From Anaerocolumna aminovalerica (lineage in GTDB: Bacteria > Bacillota > Clostridia > Lachnospirales > Lachnospiraceae), in contig NZ_FOWD01000024.1 of NCBI RefSeq assembly GCF_900115365.1, positions 1 to 64,000 of the forward strand: 64,000 nt of DNA, in the 5' to 3' direction. Below, piece after piece: positions 3,990 through 61,302 of the stretch. Position 1 is the first letter of the stretch, and each line of letters starts with the position of its first letter. Made by a program: the position numbers and the translations under genes. The notes under the pieces are model-generated. The model was given only the letters and a program-made list of their open reading frames with translations, did not search any database and was not told the origin of the DNA.

Positions 3990-4064
3990 CGGGGTGTGGC
4001 TCAGCTTGGCTAGAGCGCTTGATTTGGGATCAAGAGGTCGCAGGTTCGAATCCTGTCACCCCGA
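3990..4064 (+). tRNA. tRNA-Pro (anticodon TGG)
   Basis: Acceptor CGGGGTG pairs with CACCCCG. The anticodon stem CTTGA/TCAAG encloses a loop with TGG. The T-arm GGTTCGAATCC is present. No 3' CCA is encoded. It is the first gene of the seven-tRNA operon. Confidence 0.95.
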
Positions 4065-4163
4065 TTTGTACAAGCCGAGTTGAATGATTTGTACAATGTA
4101 ATTAAATGCAGTATGAATAAGTTACACAAAGCTTCATAATAATTCTATGTAAAGAGTTTATGT

Positions 4164-4234
4164 GCGGGTGTAGTTCAATGGTAGAACACTAGCCTTCCAA
4201 GCTAGATACGTGGGTTCGATTCCCATCACCCGCT
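4164..4234 (+). tRNA. tRNA-Gly (anticodon TCC)
   Basis: Acceptor GCGGGTG pairs with CACCCGC. The anticodon stem CTAGC/GCTAG has TCC in the loop. The T-arm GGGTTCGATTCCC is intact. CCA is not encoded. Confidence 0.95.
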
Positions 4235-4260
4235 TGATGTGCGTATTTGCATATCGAAAT

Positions 4261-4334
4261 GTGCTAGTAGCTCAGTTGGATAGAGCAACGGCCTTCTAAG
4301 CCGTGTGTCGGGGGTTCGAATCCCTTCTGGCACA
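4261..4334 (+). tRNA. tRNA-Arg (anticodon TCT)
   Basis: Acceptor GTGCTAG pairs with CTGGCAC. The anticodon stem ACGGC/GCCGT carries TCT, so it reads AGA/AGG codons, abundant in this AT-rich genome. CCA is not encoded. Confidence 0.95.
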
Positions 4335-4342
4335 TTTTATAT

Positions 4343-4417
4343 GGTGGGTATAGCGCAGTTGGTTAGCGCGCCAGATTGTGGCTCTGGAGGCCAAGGGTTC
4401 GAATCCCTTTATCCACC
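4343..4417 (+). tRNA. tRNA-His (anticodon GTG)
   Basis: The anticodon stem CCAGA/TCTGG encloses GTG. An extra 5' G at 4343 faces C at the discriminator position 4417, the G-1:C73 identity pair of bacterial tRNA-His. Confidence 0.95.
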
Positions 4418-4446
4418 CTGGTAATTAAAATTGCCTTAATTATTAA

Positions 4447-4518
4447 TGGGCTGTCGCCAAGCGGTAAGGCACAGGACTTTGACTCCTGCAGTCGCTGGTT
4501 CGAATCCAGCTAGCCCAG
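4447..4518 (+). tRNA. tRNA-Gln (anticodon TTG)
   Basis: Acceptor TGGGCTG pairs with TAGCCCA, with the U1:A72 pair usual for tRNA-Gln. The anticodon stem CAGGA/TCCTG holds TTG. CCA is not encoded. Confidence 0.95.
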
Positions 4519-4577
4519 TTTCTAACTGAATATTGTTAGATAATAGGATGCTTAACTTAATATAGTTAACATCGGAT

Positions 4578-4650
4578 GGGATATTAGCTCAGTCGGTAGA
4601 GCACTTGACTTTTAATCAAGGTGTCCCGGGTTCGAATCCCGGATGTCTCA
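4578..4650 (+). tRNA. tRNA-Lys (anticodon TTT)
   Basis: Acceptor GGGATAT pairs with ATGTCTC with two G:U pairs. The anticodon stem CTTGA/TCAAG carries TTT. The T-arm CGGGTTCGAATCCCG is perfect. Confidence 0.94.
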
Positions 4651-4654
4651 TTTT

Positions 4655-4734
4655 GCGGATGTGGCGGAACTGGCAGACGCGCTAGACTTAGGATCTAGTG
4701 GGATACCGTGGGGGTTCAAGTCCCTTCATCCGCA
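4655..4734 (+). tRNA. tRNA-Leu (anticodon TAG)
   Basis: Acceptor GCGGATG pairs with CATCCGC. The anticodon stem CTAGA/TCTAG holds TAG. The variable region is extended, as in class II tRNAs, but short, giving 80 nt in all. It is the last gene of the operon, followed by a terminator. Confidence 0.93.
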
Positions 4735-4746
4735 TTAATTGATAAG

Positions 4747-8051: not shown

Positions 8052-8960
8052 TTATTCCTGTGGTACAGGAACAATCCATATCTCCATGTTGGTTGTTTCA
8101 GGACTGTGACTTGCATAGCGTTCCGCTGCAAAAGGTTTTGAAGTAAGGTTGTGATTTGGAAGCCAAGTTTCAAATACATATTTGTGAGCCTTATACACTA
8201 CATCCATCACAAGGTGTTCAAAATCCTCCGCCTCAAAAGAACAGACGATATATTCACCTTTTGGGAGTTCCCAAGAAGAATAACCTTCCAATATTTCATT
8301 TGAATCAGATTCTGCACCGGCAAAATAGCGGTAATAGCCATCCTTTGTTCCGGGATAGGCAACCCCAAGTTCATCCCCATCTCTTTTCAGTTCTTGTATG
8401 GTAGGCTTGTTTTTATGAAAGTCGTCCCATAGCTTTCCCAGCTCATCTACGCCGGTCTCACCGCCGCCAGGCATCTGATTAATTGGTTCTTCTGCCGTAA
8501 GCCCAATGAAATATTGGGGAGATAAGAGAGTTCGTCGTGTAATTTCAAGAACGATTCCCTCTGCAACTAAAGGTACATTTTCGTCCACAAGAGTATAGTT
8601 TAACAGCAACTGGGGTTTCACAAAGCTATTAAGGCGAACAGGATTGATTCGGTATTCCTCAGGGGTCATTCCAAAAGTATCTTTAAAGGCTCGTGTAAAA
8701 GTTTCGTGAGAAGAAAAACCAAAATCCAAAGCAATATCTAGAATTCTTTTGTTCCTATTCCGTAAAGCCTCGGATGCTTTTGAAAGACGACGCATTTTAA
8801 TATATTCGTTCACCGGTCTTTTTACCAAGCGGCTGAATAGCCTTTGATAATAAAACTGGGATAGCGAAGCAAGCTTTGCTAGATCATTAATTCTAATTTC
8901 CTCTGAAAGATGTTCTTCAATATAGTCTACAGTTATTTGTATTTGTTCCCATGCGTGCAT
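8052..8960 (-). CDS. AraC family regulator with C-terminal GyrI-like effector domain
   Basis: Transcription factor of 302 residues. Residues 1-105 hold the double helix-turn-helix (LAKLASLSQFYYQRLFSRLV and ILDIALDFGFSSHETFTRAF, ending FGMTPEEYR). The C-terminal half resembles the GyrI/SOUL-type effector domain of Rob and related regulators, ending in a beta strand METWIV-like segment (TNMEIWIVPVP). Such proteins often sense hydrophobic or aromatic drugs and activate efflux or detoxification genes. The ATG follows AAGGAGGTG. No obvious dedicated target is adjacent; the divergent neighbour is the DJ-1-like gene. Confidence 0.88.
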   Translation of the reverse strand: MHAWEQIQITVDYIEEHLSEEIRINDLAKLASLSQFYYQRLFSRLVKRPVNEYIKMRRLSKASEALRNRNKRILDIALDFGFSSHETFTRAFKDTFGMTPEEYRINPVRLNSFVKPQLLLNYTLVDENVPLVAEGIVLEITRRTLLSPQYFIGLTAEEPINQMPGGGETGVDELGKLWDDFHKNKPTIQELKRDGDELGVAYPGTKDGYYRYFAGAESDSNEILEGYSSWELPKGEYIVCSFEAEDFEHLVMDVVYKAHKYVFETWLPNHNLTSKPFAAERYASHSPETTNMEIWIVPVPQE

Positions 8961-9088
8961 ATCTTAGCACCTCCTTGTAAATAGGATAGCATGCTCATAA
9001 TGAATTAGCTTGACTGCCAATGCCTTTTTTAGATAATACAGGAATTTTGGAAAACTTTCAATGATAGTGCAGAAATATATTATAATAT

Positions 9089-9231
9089 GATATAATAAAA
9101 ACGGAGTGAGGAAATGCAAGCCTCGCTTGCGCTTTCCGAGCGTAGTGCCAAGATCATGAACACGCTTTTTGTTCATGATATAATAAAAACGGAGTGAGGA
9201 AATACAAGCTCGCTCGCTTGCGCTTTCCGAG
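9089..9231 (+). repeat. 88-bp promoter/hairpin unit in tandem (copy A, 1.6 units)
   Basis: Two units start at 9089 and 9177, exactly 88 nt apart. Each starts GATATAATAAAAACGGAGTG, continues GAGGAAAT, then a GCAAGC..GCTTGC hairpin and TTTCCGAG. Between them is AGTGCCAAGATCATGAAC, whose ATCATGAAC pairs with GTTCATGAT at the start of unit 2. Each unit carries a TATAAT box about 8 nt before ACGGA, so transcripts probably start within the hairpin region. The same 88-nt arrangement recurs at 41969-42104. Confidence 0.8.
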
Positions 9232-9266
9232 TGGATCAGAAGATGGTGAATTGGATTTTCGTAAAA

Positions 9267-9290
9267 GGTGCTTAAGCACCGGAATGGAGG
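9267..9290 (+). promoter_or_regulatory. GGTGCT hairpin plus Shine-Dalgarno cassette (DJ-1-like gene)
   Basis: Palindrome GGTGCTTAAGCACC (9267-9280) followed by GGAATGGAGG and TTATT before the ATG at 9296. The same cassette occurs upstream of genes at 17488, 23802 and 27855. Confidence 0.75.
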
Positions 9291-9295
9291 TTATT

Positions 9296-9847
9296 ATGTC
9301 AGAAGTTTATATATTTTTAGCAGACGGATTTGAAGAAATTGAGGGCCTTACCGTAGTGGATCTTCTAAGAAGAGCTGGAATTGATATTACCATGGTTTCT
9401 ATAACCGGGTCCAAAGAGATTACAGGGGCTCATAATATTAAAGTGATTGCTGATGAATTATTTGATGAAACAGGTTATAATAATGCAAAGATGTTAGTAT
9501 TACCAGGTGGAATGCCAGGTACTACACATCTATTGGAACATAAGAAGTTACGTGAATTATTATTGAGACATAATTCTGAAGATAAAATGATTGCTGCAAT
9601 TTGTGCAGCGCCAAGTGTGTTAGGAATGCATGGTATCTTAGAGGGTAAGAAAGCTACCTGCTATCCTGGTTTTGAAGATAAATTAATTGGTGCTAATTAC
9701 ACCAATGAAAAAGTAGTAAAAGATAAGAATGTCATAACAAGCAAAGGGCTTGGAACTGCTATTGATTTTGCCGCTTCTATTATTGAGCACTATCAGGGAA
9801 AAGAAGCAGCAAATCGGATAAAATCTTCAATACAATATGGATATTAA
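9296..9847 (+). CDS. DJ-1/PfpI family protein
   Basis: Member of the DJ-1/ThiJ/PfpI superfamily, 183 residues, a common length. The nucleophilic Cys103 sits in AAICAAPSVLG and the conserved acidic partner Glu16 in GFEEIEG, as in bacterial YajL and YhbO relatives that act in stress protection, variously described as chaperone, deglycase or glyoxalase. The start at 9296 has GGAGG six nt upstream; the longer in-frame extension to 9194 simply translates the repeat and hairpin leader and is not conserved protein. Function beyond the family is uncertain. Confidence 0.87.
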   Translation: MSEVYIFLADGFEEIEGLTVVDLLRRAGIDITMVSITGSKEITGAHNIKVIADELFDETGYNNAKMLVLPGGMPGTTHLLEHKKLRELLLRHNSEDKMIAAICAAPSVLGMHGILEGKKATCYPGFEDKLIGANYTNEKVVKDKNVITSKGLGTAIDFAASIIEHYQGKEAANRIKSSIQYGY

Positions 9848-41813: not shown

Positions 41814-41968
41814 AATTTACGTTATAAGGCAAAATTAAGTACTTAAGTAGGATGTTGTATTGTTGAAAATCTCAGTATATTTTTTTTACTATTTATCAGT
41901 TTTAAATGGAAAAAATATTATCATAGGTTGTCTTAAATTTACTTGAATTATTTTATATTTCCGTTTAT

Positions 41969-42104
41969 GATATAATACAAACGGAATGAGGAAGGTGCAA
42001 GCTTGCTTGCAAATTCCGATTGGAGTGCCAAGATCATGAACATTTTTTATGTTCATGATATAATACAAACGGAATGAGGAAGATGCAAGCTTGCTTGCAA
42101 ATTA
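41969..42104 (+). repeat. 88-bp promoter/hairpin unit in tandem (copy B, 1.6 units)
   Basis: Units start at 41969 and 42057, again exactly 88 nt apart, with GATATAATACAAACGGAATG, GAGGAAG, then a GCAAGC..GCTTGC hairpin. The linker AGTGCCAAGATCATGAAC is identical to copy A. TTCCGTTT (41959-41966) and AAACGGAA flank the first TATAAT. The last unit ends 25 nt before the gene at 42129. Confidence 0.8.
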
Positions 42105-42128: not shown

Positions 42129-42479
42129 ATGACTATGTATCAGGATAAGATGGTTTTATGTGCCAGCAGTTCTTATGAGCATAAATTTTATTTAAATGAA
42201 GATTTTGATTCGCTTCCGGAATCTATTAAAGAGGAATTAAAAATCATGTGTGTTTTATATACAGAAGATGTAGGAGGTGTTCTTACATTAGAGTTTGATG
42301 AAGAAGGTGACTTGATGTTCAATGTGACTAGTGATGAGGGAGATCTTCTTTTCGATGAAATTGGAAGTGTCCTTAAGATAAAGGAAATCAGACAGAAAAA
42401 AGAAGAGCTTTTGGAAGCATTGGAATTATATTATAAAGTGTTTTTTTTAGGTGAAGATGTTGATTTAGAAGATAAATAG
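42129..42479 (+). CDS. Small acidic conserved protein (DUF6145/DUF1292-like)
   Basis: 116 residues, strongly acidic. Segments [42 protein letters not shown] recall a small Lachnospiraceae family that I associate with DUF6145, but I cannot verify the number. No catalytic motif, membrane segment or cysteine pair is seen. The start at 42129 follows AAAGGG; an overlapping ATG is at 42135. It is the first gene of a run with coaX, dusB and a YvyF-like gene (gaps 14-35 nt), so it is likely part of that operon. Confidence 0.6.
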
Positions 42480-57322: not shown

Positions 57323-57403
57323 AGGACTCCTTTCACCGGAATGCTGCAACATCCTCGGGTGGGAATGCTGCGTATCCCACTCTTTCCTCATTCCGTTTTT
57401 AAA
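57323..57403 (-). repeat. Degenerate relative of the 88-bp leader unit (copy C)
   Basis: On the minus strand AAAAACGGAATGAGGAAAG begins a leader in which two related hairpins (GGGATAC..GTATCCC-like and GGATGTTGCAGCATTCC) lie before ATTCCGGTGAAAGGAG. The opening box AAACGGAATGAGGAA is shared with copies A and B, and CGGAAT can pair with ATTCCG. No TATAAT lies at the usual place. Confidence 0.5.
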
Positions 57404-61166: not shown

Positions 61167-61207
61167 TTACAAAATATCAATTTGCACTGCATTATAATCT
61201 ACAGTAC

Positions 61208-61302
61208 AAACTGAGCAGGCGATGAATCAAGATATTCTCTGATTCATGGGGCTGGGCCGTTTATACGGCAGCAGATGAGTGTTACACATCTGTGGGACAG
61301 TA
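61208..61302 (+). promoter_or_regulatory. NiCo (czcD) riboswitch aptamer
   Basis: Opens ACTGAGCAGGCGATGAATC and contains the four-way-junction signatures GGGGCTGGGCCG, CGGCAGCAGATGAG, and closes CATCTGTGGGACAGT, in the order and with the spacing of the NiCo riboswitch. P1 ACTG pairs with CAGT. The class binds Ni and Co, and iron has been proposed. It lies before a cation transporter gene, the usual target. The assignment is from remembered consensus. Confidence 0.9.

Follow-up and report, generated by a model that had tools for sequence, protein, structure and literature searches.

Why should the same 88-nt unit, which combines a TATAAT box with hairpins, stand in front of unrelated genes at two distant places of a single contig? 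The question was raised by an earlier note on the first 64,000 nucleotides of contig NZ_FOWD01000024.1 of Anaerocolumna aminovalerica (the whole of this stretch is called the window in the following), which reported two such units each at 9089 and 41969 and regarded them as a regulatory cassette, mobile or amplified, that supplies every copy with a promoter and a 5' hairpin. The window lies on contig C65 of a draft genome (G000) of 83 contigs and 4.62 Mb. As judged from sequence, a dispersed family of such units and covariation within their hairpins lend support to this interpretation.

Two loci and the anatomy of the unit

Both loci were recovered as described. When the whole window was searched with a covariance model and filters switched off, the complete units at the second and first locus were the two top matches (E 1.3e-20 and 2.6e-18, respectively) and the third-best match had an E value of 0.26; the model had been built from units of the same genome, including both window units that it then scored. 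Each locus holds one complete unit, but the second units (at 9177 and 42057) are incomplete: the former is clear through hairpin 1 and continues as a weak match to profile positions 1-85 of the family, the latter matches profile positions 1-48 only, and the right-hand -10 box is absent from both. The linker AGTGCCAAGATCATGAAC is indeed the same at both loci, although its exact copy occurs only once at each. The downstream genes are unrelated, as had been stated (DJ-1/PfpI, DUF6145 and, for a third relative, DUF188 at 57391). Exact copies of TATGATATAAT are found in the window only at the two left ends listed in Table 1, with an element at both.

Table 1. Positions of the units, their parts and the third relative in the window
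Feature	Position	Strand	Evidence
Left extended -10 box TATGATATAAT, junction with native promoter	9086..9096	+	exact match; left-flank frequencies
Complete unit including both -10 boxes	9088..9184	+	102.2 bits
Hairpin 1 (ACGGAGTGAGG ... GTAGT) with conserved G.A-rich internal motifs	9101..9146	+	pairing and base counts on alignment; folding
Hairpin 2 (ATCATGAAC ... GTTCATGAT), 3' arm enters next -10 box	9153..9179	+	folding; pairing counts
Right extended -10 box CATGATATAAT	9174..9184	+	exact match
Second, incomplete unit, weak match beyond about 9231, right -10 box lacking; precedes DJ-1/PfpI gene (start 9296)	9177..9262	+	
Left extended -10 box TATGATATAAT	41966..41976	+	exact match
Complete unit	41968..42064	+	113.5 bits
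Hairpin 1	41981..42026	+	pairing and base counts on alignment
Hairpin 2	42033..42059	+	folding; pairing counts
Right extended -10 box CATGATATAAT	42054..42064	+	exact match
Second, truncated unit, upstream of DUF6145 gene at 42129	42057..42103	+	profile match
Decayed relative of the extra-hairpin variant of G013, upstream of DUF188 gene	57323..57403	-	alignment with G013 unit

The order of parts within a unit is TATAAT, four unpaired bases, hairpin 1, a linker, and hairpin 2, which runs by its 3' arm into the next extended -10 box; a complete unit is thus flanked by two such boxes, TATGATATAAT ... CATGATATAAT. Alignment A2 comprises 100 model matches and 88 distinct rows, of which 74 have an exact TATAAT and 14 do not; in 67 of the 74, TATAAT and the first paired base are separated by 4 nt. 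Unlike a miniature inverted-repeat transposable element (MITE), the unit carries no terminal inverted repeats: ATGATATAAT at the left end and CATGATATAAT at the right end are in direct orientation, and ATGATATAAT is only a weak palindrome. We considered a terminator role for hairpin 2 and dropped it, as what comes after the hairpin is ATAAT rather than a run of T.

Covariation, which the earlier note had named as a check, was found in A2 with changes on both sides in 18 of 25 pairs. In this alignment 93.3% of 2047 cells are paired, and 183 cells show double changes compared to 58.1 +/- 5.2 in shuffled alignments and at most 48 for slid structures; since A2 was fitted to the structure used in the covariance model, which was written by hand, and its rows are related, these figures lean towards that structure. 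RNAalifold applied to alignment A1 predicted only 12 pairs, none of them in hairpin 2, and folding units and leaders as single sequences gave nothing remarkable (z-scores -0.99 to -2.39 and -0.03 to -1.66). The outermost pair is A-U in 51 rows and G-C in 22, and the pair between two G.A motifs is A-U in 54, G-C in 20 and C-G in 4. On either side of this pair opposed G and A are kept in most of up to 88 rows (G20 in 78 and A110 in 76; A22 in 84 and G108 in 78; G25 in 85 and A103 in 87; A26 in 86 and G102 in 81). Sheared G.A pairs are a known RNA motif, and we infer that the opposed bases form such pairs. G(G/T)A(G/A) beside hairpin 1 and G(G/T)AG before hairpin 2, present in most A1 units, both lie inside an opposed G.A motif. 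Among relatives, altered bases before TATAAT are matched by an altered opposite arm of hairpin 2 (for example AAGAAAATGAAC with TTTTATAAT). G-U cells outnumber A-C cells (82 vs 46), which mildly favours folding of this strand.

The third, degenerate relative proposed for the minus strand (Table 1) can be aligned with a variant of the unit that carries an additional GTGGGA...TCCCAC hairpin and is found in G013, the congener closest to G000 by the proteins compared; it was, however, missed by the covariance model, and TATAAT does not directly precede it. Alignment scores with the extra-hairpin units of G013 were 42-47, compared to a maximum of 26-27 in 300 single-letter shuffles, and 31 and 33 with the two units of the window itself. 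Four loci of G013 (L087, L095, L073, L250) show this subfamily, complete or partial, in which a GTGGGAG...CTCCCAC-like hairpin is set inside hairpin 1.

A dispersed and oriented family

The window copies are not the only ones. The genome contains 51 DNA matches to window positions 9080-9240 at more than 30 places, as single units or head-to-tail arrays, and a profile match was obtained at 34 of 36 places examined. At 30 loci (best match at least 40 bits, repeated flanks dropped) arrays consist of one match in 12 cases, two in 8, three in 7 and four in 3, partial units counted. Some arrays reach contig ends, and by their matching partial units C46 and C78, and likewise C9 and C68, look like halves of one array.

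In 60 related genomes, blastn matches were obtained in ten, namely in nine of 14 congeners and in one other genome, whose 24-bp match is taken for chance; two of the nine congeners gave a single match each, and all copy counts in relatives are lower bounds (at most 14 candidates per genome were scored). A scan of genome_contigs with an exact pattern retrieved 40 stretches titled Anaerocolumna, Herbinix, Lachnospiraceae, Clostridiales or Clostridiaceae. A unit of NZ_CP048000 (A. sedimenticola) and its left flank agree with those of the congener G005, a genome of 5.5 Mb in a single contig. Among 299 Lachnospiraceae genomes searched with the covariance model only four were positive, our own and three from other genera, which is probably an undercount because filters were strict and the model was made from units of our own genome only. 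Diverged kinds with different hairpin-1 sequences occur in isolate C70, bin E0_LS 228, G136 and G196, with a repeat period of 68 bp in C70 and 69 bp in one array of G136, and hairpin 1 of G152 is close to that of the window. Most diverged kinds have kept TATGATATAAT and ATCATGAAC...GTTCATGATATAAT, which for the genome_contigs records follows from the search pattern itself. At four loci of bin E0_LS 228 (L107, L120, L136, L138) a second short hairpin repeat (GAACGCAAGGCGTTC-like, then AGAAGAA...) follows the last -10 box of the element. A strongly diverged unit-like sequence follows TATGATATAATA at C53:77170 of our own genome (L305), where CGTAGTGA...GAGCGGAGC flank another stem; this is perhaps a further subfamily.

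The units match no family of Rfam at the gathering threshold, at which the whole window yielded only a NiCo (nickel/cobalt) riboswitch (61201-61302, 82 bits) and seven clustered tRNA genes (3990-4735; Pro, Gly, Arg, His, Gln, Lys, Leu); down to E 5, positions 8960-9320 gave only two weak matches (E 3.0 and 3.1). The core pattern did not occur exactly in viral_contigs, blastn of window 41966-42064 gave no match in the plasmids collection, and the titles and abstract openings of the open-licence papers retrieved contained no description of the 88-bp repeat.

Several observations concern the spread of the units within the genome. The 97 bp of unit C46.1 recur without a change in C53a.1, which has different flanks, and a single base separates C58a.1 from C72b.1. 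In multi-unit arrays the nearest relative of a unit is located in the same array for 25 of 32 units, and mean identity is 92.6% within arrays vs 82.6% between them; local duplication thus seems to be the main way in which arrays grow, while some units arrive from elsewhere.

The element points at the downstream gene at 52 of 59 scorable loci, orientation being scored against the first ORF of 100 aa or more that follows within 400 bp (nine of 68 loci were not scorable). In our own genome 20 of 26 scorable loci (of 30) show the same direction and six are contrary; in relatives the corresponding numbers are 32 of 33 (of 38) and one. A looser count of all 34 profile-match places of our own genome gave 25 vs 7, with two lacking a downstream ORF. 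At C29, one of the six contrary loci, the script probably picked an antisense ORF. Real contrary copies include a low-scoring one beside recA and the intact C53a unit, which is antisense between two tRNA genes and was not scorable in the orientation count. The genes downstream of the units have no common theme.

Occupied and bare promoters

The left boundary of the element is sharp. In 61 distinct left flanks from 99 arrays, chosen for an exact TATAAT (which is therefore present in 100% by selection), TATGA precedes TATAAT at 90-93% per position, and the next base outward is at background. A -35-like signal (at least four of six bases of TTGACA at a spacing of 16-18) is present in 21 of the 61 flanks, compared to 9.6 +/- 2.8 in single-letter shuffles (P 0.001) and to 3-14 in five other registers; flanks of related loci are not independent in this test. 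The signal is seen in relatives (14 of 36 vs 5.7, P 0.0005) and is not significant in our own genome alone (7 of 25 vs 4.0, P 0.09).

Comparisons of the asnS and purL promoters were made by eye on printed sequence, between species and not between strains; asnS of G000 and G136, phosphoribosylformylglycinamidine synthase (purL) and proC were named by NCBIfam, RecA by Pfam, and asnS and purL in congeners by similarity to the G000 protein. Upstream of asnS, G000 has TTGTAATCAGAAAATCATATGATATAAT-element-CATGATATAATAAAAAAGAAATTA where G013 has bare TTGTAATCAGAAAATCATATGTTATAATAAGAAAAGAAATTA. The promoter is likewise bare, with TATGATATAAT, in G003, G005 and G010; bare TGNTATAAT lies near by in less similar sequence in G008, G009, G011, G012 and G014, and G002 and G004 gave no clear match. 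In G001 a unit of its own species type occupies the same -10 box, G007 has an apparently decayed unit, and asnS of G136, a member of another genus, is also preceded by a unit, which suggests that this promoter was hit repeatedly or that the element was kept selectively. At purL, where G000 carries four units and a partial fifth, the promoter of the closest congener (G013) is bare exactly where the element sits in G000; of 13 other genomes compared, 11 have a bare TRTGNTATAAT at the corresponding site, and G002 and G004 have a weaker -10 box. At the DUF6145 locus G013 shares the upstream sequence and has the promoter TTTATGATATATAGTG, no unit and a different leader. The DJ-1 site is occupied in both, by a partial unit of the extra-hairpin variant in G013. 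The comparison at proC was not clean; upstream of its homologue in G013 (L158), about seven tandem 18-19-bp units like TATAATGGATTAAAACAT, -10-like boxes without hairpins, sit in the promoter region where G000 has the element. The occupied and bare states would be explained by insertion rather than by loss.

Bare promoters contain one -10 box and occupied ones have a box on each side of the element, but the letter at N differs between the two states at purL and at asnS of G013, so that a plain target-site duplication would need a later change, or replacement. Among the 86 TATGNTATAATR sites of our own genome, 37 have A at N, and element left ends account for 20 of these 37 compared to none of the 49 sites with C, G or T (Fisher P 9e-10); one of the 20, C58:170901, belongs to a half element. 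By eye, the other 17 sites with A comprise two apparent decayed or divergent relatives (C53:77170, C16:8107) and 15 that are apparently bare. Either A at N is required for insertion or it is brought by the element. The latter is favoured at purL, since none of the 11 bare purL promoters has A at N; both outer -10 boxes of purL in G000 have it. At asnS the bare promoters are mixed, with A in G003, G005 and G010 and T in G013.

Origin of the family and relation to known repeats

We consider it probable that the family consists of small (about 88 bp), non-autonomous mobile elements which insert at extended -10 promoters (TATGATATAAT) along the direction of the promoter. Insertion would leave a -10 box on either side of the element: the upstream box would retain the native upstream region, and the downstream box, part of the 3' arm of hairpin 2, would face the gene, which would thus keep a -10 box in front of it. 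As one target box becomes two, head-to-tail arrays could grow by local duplication and further insertion. From the position of each TATAAT, RNA synthesis would be expected to begin only a few bases from the foot of hairpin 1, so that every transcript would carry a stem-loop at its start. In other bacteria, 5'-terminal stem-loops slow 5'-end-dependent mRNA decay. Promoter activity, transcript start and an effect on mRNA are predictions for the element that derive from its sequence.

The strong covariation, the conserved G.A-rich motifs, the excess of G-U over A-C cells (expected if this strand folds) and the sense orientation would all fit a cis-regulatory leader RNA, riboswitch-like or protein-binding, that was spread by selection and not by mobility upstream of co-controlled genes, and so would its recurrence upstream of asnS in G000, G001, G007 and another genus. 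We nevertheless regard such a leader as very unlikely, because the downstream genes share no theme, copies are present or absent between congeners, an identical unit occurs at two loci, some copies are antisense (beside recA; between two tRNA genes) and no Rfam family reached its gathering score. If the units were only a tandem repeat that expands by slippage and was spread by ectopic recombination between promoters sharing TATGATATAAT, units should usually be closest to their array neighbours, as is the case, the common 10-11 bp at both ends could act as microhomology, and A at N in both purL boxes would fit replacement. However, about 10 bp is short for homologous recombination, and so many scattered insertions that share their left end and orientation point to a precise process; we regard this explanation as distinctly improbable.

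Also unlikely, in our view, is a REP/REPIN-like nature, in which a Y1 transposase (IS200/IS605 or RAYT) would mobilise the element in single-stranded form. In line with it are the two hairpins near the ends, the TATAAT shared by both ends and a G(G/T)AG close to the hairpins, and four of the nine element-bearing congeners have a Y1 match (PF01797, E 0.001), but none was found in the other five (G005, G006, G007, G009, G011; G006 is only 78% complete, and G005, G007 and G009 are single contigs), whereas G008 has four matches and no element was found in it. A Y1/IS200 origin is disfavoured, as Y1 does not track with the element; the Y1 copies read in our own genome resemble ordinary IS200 and have different hairpins. 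Furthermore, head-to-head dimers predominate among REPs, and the passage concerned does not name Firmicutes as one of the phyla with GTAG repeats (PMC3733652). Pieces of IS200-like Y1 genes are located at many contig ends of G000 (e.g. C13, C28, C33, C40, C43, C50, C55, C56, C72, C81), and these copies thus probably break the assembly; the piece at C27 has an in-frame stop. With respect to an autonomous version of the element, no partner was detected within about 4 kb around four half-element loci.

The small mobile element that we prefer as explanation shares features with three known systems, compared here with the passages that describe them. BOX of Streptococcus pneumoniae, a short interspersed repeat judged currently dormant by the authors, has a variable number of modules in tandem, is predicted to fold when transcribed, lies near genes and can affect their expression (PMC3049150). 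It differs by its own end modules (boxA, boxC) with terminal inverted repeats (PMC3049150), while the 88-bp element repeats one type of module and ends in direct extended -10 boxes inside existing promoters; an order boxA-boxB(n)-boxC was not found, as a -10 box opens the arrays and also closes many of them. Correia elements (CREE) of Neisseria are likewise small mobile repeats with sigma-70 promoters at one or both ends and hairpins in transcripts, and one type pairs a native -35 with a -10 in the element (PMC2649163, PMC10969869). In contrast to these, which have inverted repeats and mostly TA target sites (PMC2649163, PMC10969869), the 88-bp element has no inverted ends, its left junction TATGATATAAT is a whole -10 box, and it forms head-to-tail arrays. 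REP, REPIN and BIME sequences are repeated intergenic palindromes in which a conserved tag, GTAG in REPs, adjoins the hairpin (PMC3733652); the 88-bp element is longer, has two hairpins, is arranged head-to-tail and occurs in five of nine congeners without a Y1 match. In the passages describing them, neither BOX nor Correia nor REP is both bounded by -10 boxes and inserted at one. The 88-bp family might represent a new class of promoter-specific mobile element that targets the extended -10 box, rebuilds it at both ends, and multiplies promoter-plus-hairpin modules without inverted repeats or a known type of transposase, with parallel insertions at asnS across species and genera, a proposal we make only tentatively.

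Insertions near genes usually break their control, or add to it by accident. An element that apparently aims at the core promoter and leaves a -10 box facing the gene would explain its presence in front of the housekeeping genes asnS and purL. If this is true, many genes of these bacteria are preceded by promoter-hairpin modules, from one to several in number, a natural series by which promoters as a target of transposition, the growth of tandem promoters, and the possible spread of 5'-terminal hairpins as mobile stabilisers of mRNA become testable. The family would thus be a natural example for studying how mobile DNA can enter promoters and leave them functional.
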